Assembly (NCBI GenBank): GCA_004293445.1
Contig: RDYP01000022.1
Span: 1 to 42,083, forward strand
Length of the DNA stretch: 42,083 nt
Reading direction: 5' to 3'
From: Verrucomicrobiota bacterium
GTDB lineage: Bacteria; Verrucomicrobiota; Verrucomicrobiia; Verrucomicrobiales; Akkermansiaceae
The position numbers were made by a program, and so were the translations under genes. The notes under the pieces are model-generated. The model searched no databases. It saw nothing but the letters and a program-made list of their open reading frames with translations, and was not told where the DNA came from. Shown here piece after piece: positions 5,048 through 42,083 of this stretch (position 1 is the stretch's first letter; each line of letters starts with the position of its first letter).

Positions 5048-6229
5048 TCACTCCTTCGACTTCTCCTCCACCACCGGCCGTTCCTCCCGCCGGTGCACCC
5101 ACACCCCCTGCACCAAGCCCAGCAGGAACATGCAAATCACCACGAAGGTTCCCGAATAACTCACCAGAGGAAGGGGAATCCCGGTGATCGGCATCAGCAA
5201 AATGCACATCCCGATATTTTCAAAAATGTGCGCGAACAAAATCGCCACCGTGCCGCCAACGATCAGGCGCCCCATCGGGTCACGAGCATAGGTCCCGATG
5301 AACAGACAAAGGACCAGCAAAAGCGCGAACGCCGTCACCAGCAGCAAACTCCCACGAAAACCCTGCTCCTCGGCAATCACAGCGAAAATGTAGTCGTTGT
5401 GCGCGGTCTCCTTCGGGATGAAGCCCATCGCATGCAGCGAAGTCCCTGCCGAACTGTCCGCATTCCACCCCGTGCCACTCCAGCCGGCCTTGCCCACCGC
5501 GAGCGAGATCCGATGCGCGGCGTATCCCTCGTTCTGCACGTCCACCTCTTTGCCGTGCAGCATCCGCCAGTAAGTGTCCAGCCGCTCCGGACCGCGCTCG
5601 GAGACCTCGGGCAGCACGATGTAAAACGCGATGGGCAACAAGGCGGTCCCCACCAGACCGATCGCCGACAGATAGCGAAACGGAATACCGCCCACCAACA
5701 GCAGCACCCCCGCCAAGGGCAGCCAGACGATTGCCGAGCCCATGTCACCCTTCCCCATCACCACCAGAAAAGACCCGCCGGCAATCACCCCCACCAGCGC
5801 GATCTTTAAAAATGGCGCATCCAGCAACCAGCCCACCTTGGGAATTTTCCTCCCCAGCCGCGGCAGATCCTGCAGCAAGCTACCGATAAGGAGCAAGCCA
5901 CCCGCTAGGATCATCTGCGCCGGCTGGAACGAGATTCCGCCCATCGTCACCTGACCCACGCCGGACGAAATCGACATCAAACCCAAGCCCGCCAACCACA
6001 AGGGCAAACCCAGCCAACGCAACCATCGGTAATCGATCAGCGCCGCGCCGAAATACACCGCCGAGCCGATCAAAATCCATGTCTTCTGCTTGTCAGCGAA
6101 CCATGCCCCTCCATTCGGCAAATGCCGAGCCGCGCTTTCGATTGAAAAAACGCCGAACACCAGCAGCCCGTACATCGTCAGCACGAGCGGCCAGTTCAAC
6201 CCGAGCAATTTCCGGAACAGCGGCGTCAT
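5048..6229 (-). CDS. rodA: Rod shape-determining protein RodA (SEDS glycosyltransferase)
   Basis: This is a SEDS-family polytopic membrane protein of about 393 aa with around ten hydrophobic segments. It polymerises lipid II into peptidoglycan strands during elongation together with a class B PBP. Family marks are GLLVFGVFSIESAA near the N-terminus, the extracytoplasmic GWSGTGW segment, FIPKETAHNDYIFAVIAEE (the classic PExxxDFIFA-like signature) and the C-terminal GIPLPLVSYSG. The start was placed at MTPLFRKLLGL (6229) because other RodA proteins begin there; an upstream ATG at 6277 would add 16 polar residues. No mreBCD or PBP2 gene lies beside it. Confidence 0.92.
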   Translation of the reverse strand: MTPLFRKLLGLNWPLVLTMYGLLVFGVFSIESAARHLPNGGAWFADKQKTWILIGSAVYFGAALIDYRWLRWLGLPLWLAGLGLMSISSGVGQVTMGGISFQPAQMILAGGLLLIGSLLQDLPRLGRKIPKVGWLLDAPFLKIALVGVIAGGSFLVVMGKGDMGSAIVWLPLAGVLLLVGGIPFRYLSAIGLVGTALLPIAFYIVLPEVSERGPERLDTYWRMLHGKEVDVQNEGYAAHRISLAVGKAGWSGTGWNADSSAGTSLHAMGFIPKETAHNDYIFAVIAEEQGFRGSLLLVTAFALLLVLCLFIGTYARDPMGRLIVGGTVAILFAHIFENIGMCILLMPITGIPLPLVSYSGTFVVICMFLLGLVQGVWVHRREERPVVEEKSKE

Positions 6230-36653: not shown

Positions 36654-37013
36654 TCAGCCACGGTCCTTCGGAAACCCTGCCGGCAACCGGGCCGCCAGCG
36701 ACTCCCATTCCCCGAGGTGGGCCCGCATCAGGCTTTTCCACAGCCTGCCGTGGTTCGGCACCGAGAAGTGCAGCAGCTCGTGGACGATCACGTAGTCGGC
36801 CAGTTCCCGGTCCAACACCAGGAGCTCGTCATTGAAGCTCAGCGTCCCGGCCGTCGAGCATGACGCCCACTTCCGGCTCATCGGCCGGATGAAAATCGAA
36901 TGGGCATCCACCTCCAGCTTGCGCGCCCACTCCAGAACGCGTGCCTTGAACTCGTCCCTGCTCCATCCAATCGCTGTCGTGCCAATGCTCACGGATGACG
37001 GATCACTTCGCAC
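36654..37013 (-). CDS. YgjP/DUF45-type zinc metallopeptidase
   Basis: The product is 119 aa. The zinc motif HELLH is in YVIVHELLHFSVPNHGRLW, with the third ligand His in NHGRLW, and RPMSRKWASCS is the conserved upstream strand of the DUF45/YgjP (M48-like, SprT-like) family. It is a short member. It starts with GTG 37013 after GGAAGAGG and overlaps the 3' end of hsdR by 11 bases. Such peptidase genes are frequently found directly after type I hsdR, but their role in the restriction system is unknown. Confidence 0.86.
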   Translation of the reverse strand: MRSDPSSVSIGTTAIGWSRDEFKARVLEWARKLEVDAHSIFIRPMSRKWASCSTAGTLSFNDELLVLDRELADYVIVHELLHFSVPNHGRLWKSLMRAHLGEWESLAARLPAGFPKDRG

Positions 37014-39921
37014 CTCTTCCAGCTTTCTCCAATAGCGAAAAAAGCGACTCCACCGTCGCAGTCACCTTCTCCAGATCGTCCTCCGCCGAAAACACCGCGA
37101 AAGTCACCGCCTTGCGCAGCTCCCGCAGCACGCCGTCGCTGTCTTTCCAGCCGGGATGCTTGACGAAGGCCTCGCGGATCCTGCCGCTCACCGCCTCGGC
37201 GTCGGGAATCCCGTCGTCGGTCAGCTTGCACAGCACGAAGTAGCTCAGGCCGTCGAGCCCCTTCTCCGCCTGCTCCTGCTTGCGCCTCGTGTTCTTCTCG
37301 ATCTCCGTGAACAGGTCCGCCAACGCCTTCTCGGTGGTACTCTGCCGCGCTTCGAAGGCCTCCTGCACCGCTTTCGCCCGCTCGGCCATCGCCACCAGGA
37401 AGGGATCGTCGCTCTGCTCGTCGGCGCTCTTCTCGATCGCCTTCACCAGGTTGATGACCTTGGTCGCCTTGCCCTCGTCCTTGGCCGCAATGGCCTCCAA
37501 GGTCCGCTTGTCGATGAAGACGTAGGGCGTCTCGGGCTCGCTCAAGGTCGTGCCGATGTGCGCCTGCACCAGCTCGTTCGTCTTCTTTTGGAAATCCCGG
37601 TCCACATACACCCGCTTGGTGTAGGCCTTGCGGACCACGTCGTAGATACGGCTGAGCGTCGTGTAGTCCCCGATGAAGGGCCGCAGGTAGGCGTCCGGCG
37701 AGATGATCTCGTAGAGCATCTCGATTTCCTTGTACTCCTTGAAGAACTCCTTCCGCCGCTCCTTGTCGCGGAAGTGCTCGATCAGGCCGTCCACGTCCTT
37801 GTCGTTGAAACCGTGGACGATGAGTTTCAGCCACCCCGGCACCCGGTCCTCCATCTTCGCCTTGAACAGCGCCTTGAGCAGGCCGATGTCCTTCACGATC
37901 GCGTTGATCTCCGCGCTGTCGAAGGCCAGTGCCTTTTCCAGCTTGTCGAAGATGCCCACGAAATCGAGCACGAAGCCGTGCGGCTTCACCATCTCTTGGG
38001 CTTCGTTCTCGTAGGGGCGGTTCACCCGGGCGATGGCTTGCAGCAGCGTGTGGTCGCGCATCGGCTTGTCCAGATACATCGCGTAGAGCACCGGCGCGTC
38101 GAAGCCGGTGAGCAGCTTCTCCGTCACGATCAGGATTTTGGGCATCTGGTCCAGCTTGCCGAAGCTCTTGCGGATCTGCCGTTCCTTCTTTGGATCGAGG
38201 TGGAATTCCTTCAGAAGCTTCGAATCATTGTTGCTGCCGGTGTAAACGACCTCGGAATACTCCGGCGGCAGGAACTGATCGAGCGCGTGCTTGTAGTGCG
38301 CACAGGCCTCGCGATCCACGCCTACCAGAAACGCTTTGTAGCCCAGCGGCTCGACGTTCTCCTTGTAATGCTTCGCCACGAACTCCGCCACCTGCTGGAT
38401 GCGCTTCTTGCCCTTGAGGAAATTCTTCAGGTTCACCGCCCGCTCTAGGATCTTGTTCAGCTCCTCGATGTCCGCCACGCCCTCGGCTTCCGCCAGCGAG
38501 AGGAATTCCTTATCCAGCACCTCGTGCGGCACCAGCATCTCGTTCGGTGCAAGCTGATAGTAGAGCGGCAGCGTGGTCCCGTCGCCGATGCTGTCCGCGA
38601 TGGAATACTTGTGCAGGTAGCCCTCGTCGTCATCCACGCCGAAGGTCTTGAAGGTCCCCTTGCCGAAGGCCGTCTTGTCCACCGGCGTGCCGGTGAAGCC
38701 GATGTAGCTCGCGTTGGGCAGACCGGCCATCAGGAAGTTCCCGAGATCGCCGCCGGTCGTCCGGTGCGCCTCGTCGATGAGCACGTAGATGTTCTTCCGC
38801 AGGTTCAGGTCCGCCGGCATGTCGCGGAACTTGTGGATCATCGTCACGATGATGCCCCGGTAATCGTTCTTCAGCAGCTCGTTCAGCCGCCGGATGCTGC
38901 TGGCGTGTTCCAGATTCCCCAGCCCCAGCGCCACCAGGTTCTTGAGCATCTGGTCTTCCAGCTCGTTGCGGTCGATCATCAGCAGCACCGTCGGCTTGTC
39001 CGCTTCCGGCGCGCGGAAAAGCATCTCCGCCGTCTTGATCATCGTGAAGGTCTTACCGCTGCCCTGCGTGTGCCAGACCAGCCCGCGCCTGCGCTTTCCG
39101 TCCAGCGCCCGCGCCACCACCTTCTCCACGCCATCCGTCTGGTGCTGGCGCAGGATGTATTTGTTCAGCTCCTCGTCCTTCTCTGCGAAGATGATGTATT
39201 CCTTCAGGAAGGCCAGCACCCGCGGGATCGTGCAGAAGCTCTTGATCTTCGCCTCCAGCTTGCCGACCTCGTCGTGCTTCCAGTGAAAAATATTCCGCCG
39301 CACCGTGTTCCAGGTCACCCCGTAGGAAAACCCGATCGCATCCGTGGCTGTGAAAAGCTGCTGCGGCACGAAAAGCTCCGGCGTTTCCTCGTGGTAACGT
39401 CGGATCTGGTCGATCCCCAGCGCGATCCCTTCATCCTTCGTCGCGTTCTTGCACTCGATCACCAGCACCGGGATGCCGTTGATGAGGAGCACCACATCCT
39501 GCCGCGTCCCGTAGTGGCCGTTGTGATAAGCAAACTCCTCGGTCACCTCGTAAACGTTCCGCTCCGGATGCTCGTAATCGATTAGGAGCAGGTCCCGCTC
39601 GCGCTTCTCCTCGTGGTCGAAGAACTTCCCCCGGTTCCGCAGGTGCTCCACGAATTCCCGGTTGCCGTAAATGTCCGTGTGCAGATGCCGGAACTTCCCG
39701 GGCAAAGCCCCCTCCGCCTCCGCGTAACGCGGGTTGAACTCCCGCACCTTGGCATCCAGCAAATCCTCGAAAAACAGACTCCCTTTCCCAATCTCGAATT
39801 TCGAATCCCCAATCCCTCTCCGCTTCTCCGCTTCTTCCCGCGACACCAACGTCCAGCCGATGGCCTCGGCGTATTCGAGGATCCGGGCTTGGACGGTTTT
39901 GTGTTCGGTGGGCTTGCTCAT
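37003..39921 (-). CDS. hsdR: Type I restriction enzyme, R (helicase-nuclease) subunit
   Basis: The product is 972 aa. The N-terminal nuclease domain has the PD-(D/E)xK-like VLLINGIPVLVIECKNATK (about residues 148-166). The SF2 motor has Walker A in HTQGSGKTFTM (about 285), DEAH in VLIDEAHRTTGG (about 383), GFTGTP and the C-terminal helicase motifs LIVTEKLLTGFDAP and QAIARVNRP. It translocates DNA and cleaves unmodified foreign DNA together with HsdM and HsdS, which are not in the window. It carries an in-frame stretch of 7-base repeats near codon 40, and its first codons are duplicated at 41223-41272. No good ribosome-binding site precedes the ATG. Confidence 0.95.
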   Translation of the reverse strand: MSKPTEHKTVQARILEYAEAIGWTLVSREEAEKRRGIGDSKFEIGKGSLFFEDLLDAKVREFNPRYAEAEGALPGKFRHLHTDIYGNREFVEHLRNRGKFFDHEEKRERDLLLIDYEHPERNVYEVTEEFAYHNGHYGTRQDVVLLINGIPVLVIECKNATKDEGIALGIDQIRRYHEETPELFVPQQLFTATDAIGFSYGVTWNTVRRNIFHWKHDEVGKLEAKIKSFCTIPRVLAFLKEYIIFAEKDEELNKYILRQHQTDGVEKVVARALDGKRRRGLVWHTQGSGKTFTMIKTAEMLFRAPEADKPTVLLMIDRNELEDQMLKNLVALGLGNLEHASSIRRLNELLKNDYRGIIVTMIHKFRDMPADLNLRKNIYVLIDEAHRTTGGDLGNFLMAGLPNASYIGFTGTPVDKTAFGKGTFKTFGVDDDEGYLHKYSIADSIGDGTTLPLYYQLAPNEMLVPHEVLDKEFLSLAEAEGVADIEELNKILERAVNLKNFLKGKKRIQQVAEFVAKHYKENVEPLGYKAFLVGVDREACAHYKHALDQFLPPEYSEVVYTGSNNDSKLLKEFHLDPKKERQIRKSFGKLDQMPKILIVTEKLLTGFDAPVLYAMYLDKPMRDHTLLQAIARVNRPYENEAQEMVKPHGFVLDFVGIFDKLEKALAFDSAEINAIVKDIGLLKALFKAKMEDRVPGWLKLIVHGFNDKDVDGLIEHFRDKERRKEFFKEYKEIEMLYEIISPDAYLRPFIGDYTTLSRIYDVVRKAYTKRVYVDRDFQKKTNELVQAHIGTTLSEPETPYVFIDKRTLEAIAAKDEGKATKVINLVKAIEKSADEQSDDPFLVAMAERAKAVQEAFEARQSTTEKALADLFTEIEKNTRRKQEQAEKGLDGLSYFVLCKLTDDGIPDAEAVSGRIREAFVKHPGWKDSDGVLRELRKAVTFAVFSAEDDLEKVTATVESLFSLLEKAGRGAK
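39863..39912. repeat. 50-bp direct repeat, copy A (inside hsdR start)
   Basis: Bases 39863-39912 match 41223-41272 with one mismatch (T at 39875 against G at 41235). They encode residues 4-19 of HsdR on the minus strand. The offset between the copies is exactly 1360 bp. Confidence 0.9.
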
Positions 39922-40308
39922 GGTTGAAAATGGAATTGCTTGGTGACTCGCGTCAGATCACCATCCGGAAGTTCTCCGCCAGTGGCGACAGAGCCAACAA
40001 AGGCCCCCGCAGAGCCAGCCTGGTCAAATCTGCGGTATTTTTTTGCCCTCACTTCATTCATCTTTGCCGGCGCGTGAAATCTGAATTGGAGTCTTGGACA
40101 TTTCATGCGATGAATCTTCCCGGACTGGGAATTCTTGGTCGGAAGGCGGTTTCTGGTTTTTCCCGGAGCCGCCTTTTTCGCGACCAGGCCCGCCGTTGAA
40201 AATCCGGATTGCGTTCCAAGGCCCGCCCGTCCATAGTCCAACCAATCCGCTAAGCGGAGGTGGATCGCCCGCAGGGGCGAGCGTGAGGGGGTCTCGAAAG
40301 AGGCCCCC
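39922..40308. other. Gap between DUF3800 gene and hsdR
   Basis: No gene is seen in these 387 bases. On the plus strand AAGGCGG (40143-40149) pairs with CCGCCTT (40169-40175) and runs into a T tract, a terminator-like shape with no gene in front of it. Close to the DUF3800 stop are two GC-rich hairpins (40265-40308). The hsdR promoter must lie in this gap unless hsdR is read through from upstream. Confidence 0.5.
40265..40308 (-). terminator. Tandem hairpins directly after the DUF3800 gene
   Basis: GGGGGTCTC (40287-40295) pairs with GAGGCCCCC (40300-40308) around a GAAA loop, starting one base after the DUF3800 stop. Next to it TCGCCC (40265-40270) pairs with GGGCGA (40275-40280). No T run follows on the minus strand, so termination is plausible but unproven. 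Confidence 0.5.
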
Positions 40309-41145
40309 TTATTCTTTGGGGAAAAGCACGGTTCCATAGCCTTCGATTCGTCCGTTGTAGAGGTGTTGGTTGAATTTGCCTTCCACGGTCTTGAGCACCC
40401 GCTGGGCAAACGGTGCCAATTCACCTTCCAGCAGCCCGTGATTCTTCAACACCCACTGCTTGACCGGGTGTCCCAGCAGATCCGCCAGTTGCAGACCCGA
40501 GATGTTGGCGTGCTTGTTCTTCAGCTTGAGCTGGCAGGAACTCAGCGCTCCCTGAAAGCTGCTCGCGTGCGTCTGCCAGACTCCGCGCTCATACACCCGC
40601 GAGTAGGATTCCTTCAGCAAGCGATCCTCCACGCCTCCCCGGGACTCCGCCATTAGATCCCCGGTGCGGTTGATGTGATTCAGATAACCGGCATACCGCT
40701 GCAATAGGAATCCCAGCCCGAGATGGTAGGGATGCGCCGCCGCCTCGCCGTAGGATTTGCGCAAGGCCAGCTTGTCAATCACCACCGCCACGACTCTGAA
40801 TTCCGCGGCGCTCATCACCTCAAGCAATCCCTCATCCCATTCCTTCCGCACTGCCGGATCACGCAGCGCCTTGAATTCCTTCCGTGCGTTCAGCATGTCC
40901 TCGCGGTGCAGCACCACCGGATCATCCGGATGGTGGGGCAGCAATCGGGACTTCAGCTCCTCCAGGGCCTCGTGGAATTTCAGGTAGTCCGGATTGCGGA
41001 ACCAACAGCCCAGCAGGCACAAATACCGGTGCGCCGGTTCCATCACATCCCGGAACACATGATCGCCGGATTCATCCAGATACAGACGGAACCGGTCCTC
41101 GAAACCCGATGGCCGCGCCGGGTTGGCTGCCACACCTTCACTCAC
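40309..41145 (-). CDS. DUF3800 domain-containing protein
   Basis: The product is 278 aa. The family mark is the N-terminal acidic motif FRLYLDESGDH (about residues 19-29), followed by YLCLLGCWF and, near the C-terminus, ISGLQLADLLGHPV with a second acidic site. DUF3800 proteins have an RNase H-like acidic pattern and are frequent in defence islands and mobile DNA; their activity is mostly uncharacterised. The GTG start overlaps the end of a short reading frame (41138-41281) by 8 bases, which indicates translational coupling. The gene lies between two copies of a 50-bp repeat, a sign of insertion by duplication. Confidence 0.87.
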   Translation of the reverse strand: MSEGVAANPARPSGFEDRFRLYLDESGDHVFRDVMEPAHRYLCLLGCWFRNPDYLKFHEALEELKSRLLPHHPDDPVVLHREDMLNARKEFKALRDPAVRKEWDEGLLEVMSAAEFRVVAVVIDKLALRKSYGEAAAHPYHLGLGFLLQRYAGYLNHINRTGDLMAESRGGVEDRLLKESYSRVYERGVWQTHASSFQGALSSCQLKLKNKHANISGLQLADLLGHPVKQWVLKNHGLLEGELAPFAQRVLKTVEGKFNQHLYNGRIEGYGTVLFPKE

Positions 41146-41281
41146 GGTTCACCTCCCTCGACCTGAGATCCTCACCTTCTTCCCCAATGTCCAATCTCCA
41201 ATTCCCAATATCCCTTCCTTCCGCCTCGGCGTATGCGAGGATCCGGGCTTGGACGGTTTTGTGTTCGGTGGGTGTGGGCAT
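41138..41281 (-). pseudogene. Duplicated hsdR 5' end forming a 47-codon reading frame
   Basis: ATG 41281 opens a frame whose residues 4-20 (PTEHKTVQARILAYAEA) repeat the start of HsdR with one change. It then runs into four tandem 7-base units (ATTGGGA, ATTGGAG, ATTGGAC, ATTGGGG) and an unrelated tail. The stop lies inside the DUF3800 start region, an 8-base overlap. It begins 3 bases after the herA stop. It may serve as a leader peptide for DUF3800, or it may be a pure relic. Confidence 0.72.
41223..41272. repeat. 50-bp direct repeat, copy B (in the short frame before DUF3800)
   Basis: This is the second copy of the repeat at 39863-39912, with one mismatch. It keeps the same codon phase relative to its own ATG, so recombination between the copies would yield an in-frame hsdR directly behind herA. 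Confidence 0.9.
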
Positions 41282-41284
41282 GTG

Positions 41285-41965
41285 TTAGCCAGCCATTCGA
41301 TTAGCGATTTCTGCGATCTCCGCTTCAGCTAGACGGTCTAACGTCCAGCCTTTGGCAAACTTGGCAGTCTCCGACTTCGGAAGTTGCTCAGCTGTCAGAT
41401 CCCGAATGCGAACCCTCGCTGGCATAGCCGCACCCTCTCCGACAAAAATTGCCTCCTGCTGTGCCAAATTGGGCAAAGCTTTTGTCATCCCGGACAAGCC
41501 GTCCGGCAAGAAGCGAGAAACATGCTGTTGATCGGCCGCATTCGTCAGTCTCAGAACAAGCCATGTGCCACACTGCGAAATCACGGTGCTCTCAACATCC
41601 GCCGGCCTCTGACTAACCAGCATCAGACCAATTCCGTATTTTCGACCTTCACGGGCGATTCTACGAATGGCTGTTTGTGCGGCGGCGTATTCAGCTTCAC
41701 CGCGGTCAGGAACGTATCGATGAGCTTCTTCACATACGAGGACGACAGGATCGCGTTTCCGCTCTTCTGTCGTTTGGTAGACTTTATACTGGAATAGCAG
41801 ACGGGCGAGCATGGCGGCCAGCGGCCCAGCAACTTCGTTCGGGAGGCCAGAAATATCCAGAATCCGAATATCCCGATCAATGGCCCCGTCGCCTTGGATC
41901 TGTCCGACCAACTGGGCGATGATGTGCGCAAGTGAGGGACTCTGGTCGTTCCATTCACGCATCAT
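41285..41965 (-). CDS. HerA-like ATPase, C-terminal part (partial at window edge)
   Basis: The 226-aa reading frame matches the C-terminal half of HerA/DUF87 DNA-translocating ATPases. It has the Walker B region DPVVLVCEEAHRYVP, then IAREGRKYGIGLMLVSQRPAD, ESTVISQCGTWLVLRL and LPNLAQQEAIFVGEG. Walker A and the HAS-barrel are missing. Homologous-looking residues (DRFSDPRIRFMMREW) extend upstream of the ATG at 41965 until an in-frame TGA at 42047-42049, so the gene is either frameshifted or continues in another frame beyond the window. HerA ATPases work in DNA end resection or in defence systems with nucleases. The stop lies 3 bases before the duplicated hsdR start. Confidence 0.82.
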   Translation of the reverse strand: MMREWNDQSPSLAHIIAQLVGQIQGDGAIDRDIRILDISGLPNEVAGPLAAMLARLLFQYKVYQTTEERKRDPVVLVCEEAHRYVPDRGEAEYAAAQTAIRRIAREGRKYGIGLMLVSQRPADVESTVISQCGTWLVLRLTNAADQQHVSRFLPDGLSGMTKALPNLAQQEAIFVGEGAAMPARVRIRDLTAEQLPKSETAKFAKGWTLDRLAEAEIAEIANRMAG

Positions 41966-42083
41966 GAAGCGAATCCGAGGATCGCTGAAGCGGTCCCGCG
42001 AAACGGAGCCAGAGAGCTTGTTGTGATGTGGTAGGCTCGGGAGGCGTCAGCCAACCGAAAACGTGAAGAGAAAGAGAAGAACA

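Follow-up and report, generated by a model that had tools for sequence, protein, structure and literature searches.

Partial copies of the hsdR start beside changing accessory genes in a family of type I restriction operons

In a 42083-nucleotide (nt) contig from a Verrucomicrobiota bacterium (RDYP01000022.1; the whole stretch is referred to here as the window), hsdR, which encodes a type I restriction subunit, starts with a sequence that is present a second time upstream, between a DUF3800 gene and herA. We found that pieces of the hsdR 5′ end, which we term scars, recur upstream of intact hsdR genes in this restriction family, that the genes beside them (cargo) turn over between hsdR lineages, and that hsdR codons 2–4 follow the cargo. 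The reading that we favor, to which we assign a probability of roughly 60%, is that the slot before hsdR is filled by recombination and that the resident hsdR start is left as a scar.

The two copies in the window lie on the minus strand. Copy A (39863–39922) comprises codons 1–20 of the intact hsdR (37003–39921, minus strand, 972 amino acids, TIGR00348) and starts with ATGAGCAAG; copy B (41223–41282) is the scar. They match at 92% over 60 nt with a spacing of exactly 1360 bp, and the 50-bp repeat with one mismatch that an earlier note on this DNA had described was recovered at that offset, with 98% identity over 50 nt (41223–41272). A search of the organism's own 3.35-Mb genome found no third place for the repeat (E ≤ 0.001), which leaves two places in all. 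Because the ATG codons are at 39921 and 41281, both copies are in the same codon phase. As the note had also stated, copy B is in the hsdR codon phase a few bases past herA: the herA stop ends at 41285 and the ATG follows 3 nt later. The gene order on the minus strand is herA (C-terminal part, at the contig end), copy B, DUF3800, hairpins, hsdR, and a gene for a YgjP-like metallopeptidase.

Comparison with relatives bears out the note's proposal that the ancestral order was herA-hsdR. In three loci from organisms that are not close kin of the window genome (L010, L071, and L045 in our numbering), a HerA 79–93% identical to that of the window is followed within a few nucleotides by hsdR, and DUF3800 is absent. 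Copy B meets the end of herA in the same way as the hsdR start in these loci; the herA/hsdR junction reads GGCTGGCTAACACATGCCCACACCC in the window and GGCCGGCTAAATCCATGCCCACACCC in L071. Among the hsdR starts, copy B comes closest to that of L010 (89.6% over 76 nt, 15 nt of which lie in the end of herA), with its own hsdR in 7th place of 74; copy B is therefore taken as the older, herA-linked start. A scripted join of copy B to copy A gives the recombination product that the note had predicted, an open hsdR start MPTPTEHKTVQARILEYAEAIGWT directly after herA. The herA-hsdR order without DUF3800 and the way copy B meets herA make it very likely that DUF3800 was inserted together with a duplicated hsdR start.

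To survey the family, we fetched the best 80 of 203 hsdR relatives, chosen without regard to scars, and scanned them using nhmmer with a nucleotide profile of hsdR nt 1–330 (E ≤ 0.01). Six loci were dropped, two with less than 300 nt upstream (L003, L046) and four in which the hsdR start lay outside the best match (L044, L074, L078, L079). Fifteen of the remaining 74 carry an hsdR 5′ piece upstream of an intact hsdR, on the same strand and usually with genes in between (L007, L009, L011, L015, L023, L031, L032, L033, L036, L039, L040, L050, L051, L052, L058). The window and L122 add two positives, both picked with the repeat known; with these, L131, and L132 included, 78 loci were examined and 17 were positive. 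The scars are spread over at least seven phyla. L032 holds two of them, in L051 the scar adjoins hsdR with no gene between, and L043 and L131 (13 codons, E = 0.015) have sub-threshold pieces. In scars that keep the start, homology begins between 4 nt before the ATG and a few codons inside; the far ends range from about codon 13 to about codon 108. The earlier note's suggestion to look for other genes bracketed by duplicated starts proved fruitful, as the same layout is found around DUF3800 in L050 and around other genes.

As a control, seven other 330-nt segments of hsdR were searched in both flanks and the first segment was searched downstream, with two matches in total (L024, downstream; L132, segment 2310–2640, E = 1.5e-4). 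When each locus was searched with its own protein, upstream matches were found in 11 of 73 loci for residues 1–120 and in 0 of 73 for the remaining seven segments; downstream, all eight matched in 0 of 72, and none matched in antisense. We also assembled 60 stretches with other HsdR genes of the phylum (TIGR00348), of which three were too short and one came from the window's own genome. None of the remaining 56 has an upstream copy of its own start, even at a laxer cutoff, the presence of cargo not being examined in this set; none matches the N terminus of the window HsdR, and none belongs to its family. The hsdR N terminus had no match in plasmids and phages; 14 hsdR relatives occur in viral contigs.

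The genes that follow the scars are diverse. HipA was found in L009 (by Pfam) and in L011, L023, L040, and L052 (same sequence group), with an additional DprA-like gene in L023; Fic in L015 and L043 (Pfam) and L032 (by group); YhcG/DUF1016 in L031 and L036 (the latter by group); a deaminase-HATPase in L033 and L039 (the latter by group); AAA/DUF4143 in L058; and DUF3800 in the window (Pfam) and L050 (tblastn). RhuM follows scars in L032 and L122, and in L031, YhcG is joined in frame with the first 13 codons of hsdR. On the other side, the scar is preceded by hsdS in L011 and L023 (Pfam), a reverse transcriptase in L036, a UvrD-type helicase in L051, and HerA in the window; matches below the cutoff were a KwaB match in L009 and an SMC match in L007, the latter gene having a look-alike in L058. 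Taking the nearest upstream gene as the longest open reading frame (ORF) ending within 450 nt, which makes some assignments rough, we sorted it into 39 sequence groups at 76 loci; at 53 of these, the distance from its stop to hsdR is −10 to +15 nt. A relative of the YgjP-like metallopeptidase is present at 78 of 80 hsdR loci.

The cargo was mapped on a FastTree phylogeny of 73 HsdR proteins (5 of 78 were dropped for stops or length) from which the first 100 codons had been removed. The 17 cargo groups (48 rows) require 38 changes on this tree, against a mean of 39.3 after shuffling, and a value as low was reached in 53 of 200 shuffles. Thus, the hsdR phylogeny is hardly reflected in the gene that precedes hsdR, and cargo moves between hsdR lineages. 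For example, the L074 HsdR is 88–90% identical to that of the window in two segments, and its cargo is different, ending in a ThsB-TIR gene; hsdM and hsdS of this locus were seen by resemblance only.

The first codons of hsdR behave differently from the remainder of the gene. In all 17 groups of two or more loci with the same cargo (51 rows, 70 pairs), likeness at codons 2–4 is 0.779 versus 0.633 after shuffling (z = 6.1), compared with z = 0.0 at codons 5–16 and 0.1 to 1.8 in later windows. The pattern holds when only the 48 pairs with hsdR bodies of 86% identity or less are counted (z = 4.7 at codons 2–4, −1.2 at codons 5–16, and −2.1 to 0.6 later). Codon by codon, z is 3.1–6.1 for codons 2–4 and at most 1.9 for codons 5–16. 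An earlier run on 15 picked groups, which omitted the hsdS, Fic_b, c9, and c10 groups, L051, and L081, gave z = 5.8 at codons 2–5 (38 pairs) and 4.8 in 23 diverged pairs, or 3.25 (18 pairs) once two groups with shifted starts were removed; the rerun with all groups had the same outcome. A wider-window test of whether the hsdR 5′ end follows cargo showed no 5′ excess.

The scars themselves were compared with the resident gene by ranking the own hsdR among all hsdR starts and averaging its percentile by codon range. The mean is 0.54 for codons 2–4 (n = 15), 0.78 for codons 5–16 (n = 15), and 0.84 from codon 17 on (n = 14). Three scars left out of this ranking, L040, L043, and L052, have values of 1.0, 1.0, and 0.12 from codon 17, and their addition changes the means to about 0.53, 0.79, and 0.82 (n = 16, 16, and 17). 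In 10 of the 13 scars that have both values, the one from codon 17 on exceeds that for codons 2–4. In the window scar, the own hsdR is the best of all for codons 5–16 (percentile 1.0) and stands at 0.19 for codons 2–4.

Taken with the codons that go with the cargo, the likeness of scars to resident genes is consistent with a crossover at codons 5–16 and a second join further down the resident hsdR. The site just before hsdR in this family would be an exchangeable slot for accessory, often defense- or toxin-like genes, and the incoming DNA would comprise both cargo and the 5′ end of a different hsdR. On the right, this DNA would recombine with the resident gene by a crossover within the conserved codons 5–16, and hsdR codons 1–4 would therefore arrive with the cargo. 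On the left, it would join the resident hsdR at a point further along the gene (from about codon 13 to about codon 108); the resident start and first stretch of hsdR would therefore be duplicated and left as a scar between the former neighbor and the newly arrived cargo. For the window, this would make herA the former neighbor, copy B the scar, and DUF3800 with its hairpins the cargo, with copy A starting the intact hsdR. As a tentative extension, to which we give somewhat less than even odds, the scars may be an ordered record of genes captured by one operon, with codons 5–16 acting as a universal homologous landing pad that moves unrelated defense genes between phyla without a transposase.

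Several observations weigh against this route. The trend along the scar is reversed in 3 of 13 cases (L122, L011, L052), and the window scar is barely closer to its own hsdR from codon 17 on (percentile 0.62), its short tail being uninformative. Codons 2–4 amount to only 9 nt, the codon windows were set after inspection, and codons 20 and 24 follow cargo too (z = 2.5 and 3.1). Clustering on the hsdR tree is seen for two cargo groups, Fic_a (2 changes versus 3.9) and c13 (1 versus 2). The earlier note had held that DUF3800 in the same place with no repeat would refute its reading, and L131 is partly such a case: no scar was found in front of its DUF3800 (70% identity), contrary to a strict rule, and the weak hsdR scar mentioned above lies behind it, the order being a DUF3732 gene, DUF3800, the same hairpins, the scar, other ORFs, and hsdR. 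We found no close relatives differing in the presence of the insertion: a window-type hsdR is absent from all 5 same-genus genomes. Scars are also absent from three E. coli operons of other HsdR families in which genes lie between hsdS and hsdR. Judging from their record titles, the named loci with scars are metagenome bins.

Alternatively, without any role for homology, a staggered break within the hsdR start could have received the cargo by ligation, so that this start would be duplicated on both sides. PMC3031569 and PMC1643837, which cite Nobusato 2000, describe such insertions with long target duplication for restriction-modification genes, and these share with our loci an insert flanked, as this explanation predicts, by long and variable direct repeats of the target. 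For 8 of 17 scars, no hsdR matches better than the own one, which also ranks high from codon 5 on, and four scars (L032a, L033, L039, L122) do match hsdR in codons 2–4. However, this explanation predicts equal codons 1–4 and common sequence upstream of the ATG, whereas homology starts at most 4 nt before it, codons 2–4 are at chance on average, so that the copies are not alike from the first base, and these codons follow the cargo. Unlike the published insertions, as far as those sources describe them, the ones here are inside a restriction operon, hit one spot repeatedly, and seem to bring the first hsdR codons with them. We consider simple target duplication unlikely.

Slightly less likely still is a homologous-recombination cassette, in which the scar and the hsdR start would serve as two arms (or a circle would arise between them), taking the cargo into whichever hsdR of the family is empty. 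The movement of cargo between hsdR lineages agrees with it, recombination at the window repeat would yield an intact hsdR, and the HipA-type cassettes of L009 and L011 have a common scar/cargo junction despite different upstream genes. On the other hand, the far part of the scar should then follow the cargo, yet it mostly resembles the resident hsdR, and the left junctions of DUF3800 differ among the window, L050, and L131.

Two further explanations are both highly improbable. The earlier note had proposed that the locus might be excised or switch phase between coupled and separate expression, for which RecA or a recombinase would have to move it between the coupled herA-hsdR form and the other; the direct repeat is in phase and gives an intact product on paper, but this idea found no support, as no recombinase was found among the four locus genes scanned, inverted repeats are weak only (18 nt at 89% or poorer), and the direct homology is just 50 nt with one mismatch. 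Slow deletion between the window repeats is possible. A site-specific integrase with the hsdR start as attachment site would account for the gathering of insertions there in at least seven phyla, but none was found among 20 neighboring proteins scanned, the variable scar ends give no fixed core site, and the hsdR start shows no unusual synonymous conservation (best 5′ window rank 134 of 635).

As part of the favored reading, the scar's open frame, which in the window ends inside the cargo start, may couple translation of the cargo to the upstream gene. In the window, copy B opens a 47-codon ORF (41138–41281, minus strand) whose end overlaps the DUF3800 start by 8 nt, and the scar ORF of L050 terminates in an ATGA overlap with the cargo start. 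The ORF stop lies within −12 to +32 nt of the cargo start, a range set afterwards, in 8 of 12 scars versus 3.8 expected from shuffled spacers (P = 0.0004). Three scars outside this set count against coupling: the stop misses by 66 nt in L009 and 161 nt in L007, and in L058 the ORF overruns the start by 224 nt. Because of these misses and the range set afterwards, we regard the coupling as suggestive only.

The DUF3800 gene itself (40309–41145, minus strand, 278 amino acids, PF12686) had no match in PADLOC and none better than E = 0.69 among solved structures, and a fold predicted from two sequences reached a pLDDT (predicted local distance difference test) score of 43.5. D23, E24, D123, and D221 are kept across five aligned relatives and would presumably suit an RNase H-like nuclease. 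DUF3800 was not found in viral contigs; 45 plasmid records contain it, all below 60% identity. Three consecutive hairpins follow the gene in the window (40238–40309, minus strand, z = −4.05), and the same sequence recurs after DUF3800 in different bacteria, in L050 (~5880–5960) and L131 (~2825–2900). They are single copy in the window's own genome, and we rejected the idea of a repeat family. The distance from the end of DUF3800 to the start of hsdR in the window is 387 nt.

Regarding the other genes of the locus, the window HsdR has HSDR_N and SWI2/SNF2 domains, both above the cutoff, and the YgjP-like metallopeptidase gene spans 36654–37013 (minus strand). The window contains only the C-terminal 226 amino acids of HerA (41285–41965, minus strand), the contig ending inside herA at 42083; HerA homology stops near 41983, and the last 100 nt (41984–42083) do not extend it, perhaps an assembly edge. 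From about codon 36 on, hsdR in copy A reads into repeat-like ATTGGG sequence (39783–39830), and copy B has a similar tail (41172–41222). A genome-wide repeat was considered for this tail and rejected, with just one exact and three 2-mismatch places; the L039 hsdR start has another insert near the place of this stretch. N6_Mtase matches in the window's own genome sit on other contigs.

A few related loci have features of their own. The L007 scar (L007:6001–6387) contains several short in-frame inserts resembling repeats. An IS200-like transposase domain (PF01797, Y1_Tnp) lies in frame within hsdR near residue 217 in L074:6001–9723 and L125:1915–6006. In L128 (G726), L129 (G790), L130 (G645), L123 (G115), and L024 (~1.5 kb after hsdR), hsdR 5′ pieces occur with no intact hsdR found behind them; these are possibly leftovers of lost operons.

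Homology-facilitated illegitimate recombination, with one homologous and one illegitimate end, is known from transformation tests; unlike in those, the anchor here is a recurrent natural one in hsdR, and the target is duplicated. Embedded defense genes in type I operons are already known. One example is DarTG2, whose genes sit in the hsdS-hsdR gap with a downstream metallopeptidase gene; this gap was named a potential recombination hotspot (PMC12255303). The RRDM island of enteropathogenic E. coli and the guilt-by-embedding approach likewise feature genes between hsdS and hsdR and a metallopeptidase gene after hsdR, but these accounts, in their accessible portions, give no hsdR-start scars or entry route. 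In PrrC/RloC-type accessory genes (PMC12707154), a toxin-like gene is also nested in a type I locus, whereas the cargo here spans many families and turns over. Our search of listings of open PubMed Central (PMC) papers found no report of hsdR-start scars and no account of how embedded genes enter the operon, and the scar signature appears to be new.

Embedded genes serve the discovery of defense systems, and scars provide a sequence tag for finding captured genes. They also offer ordered insertion points, indicate a likely anchor, and allow the process to be tested by transformation. Their presence in other bacteria suggests how such defense operons collect new genes.

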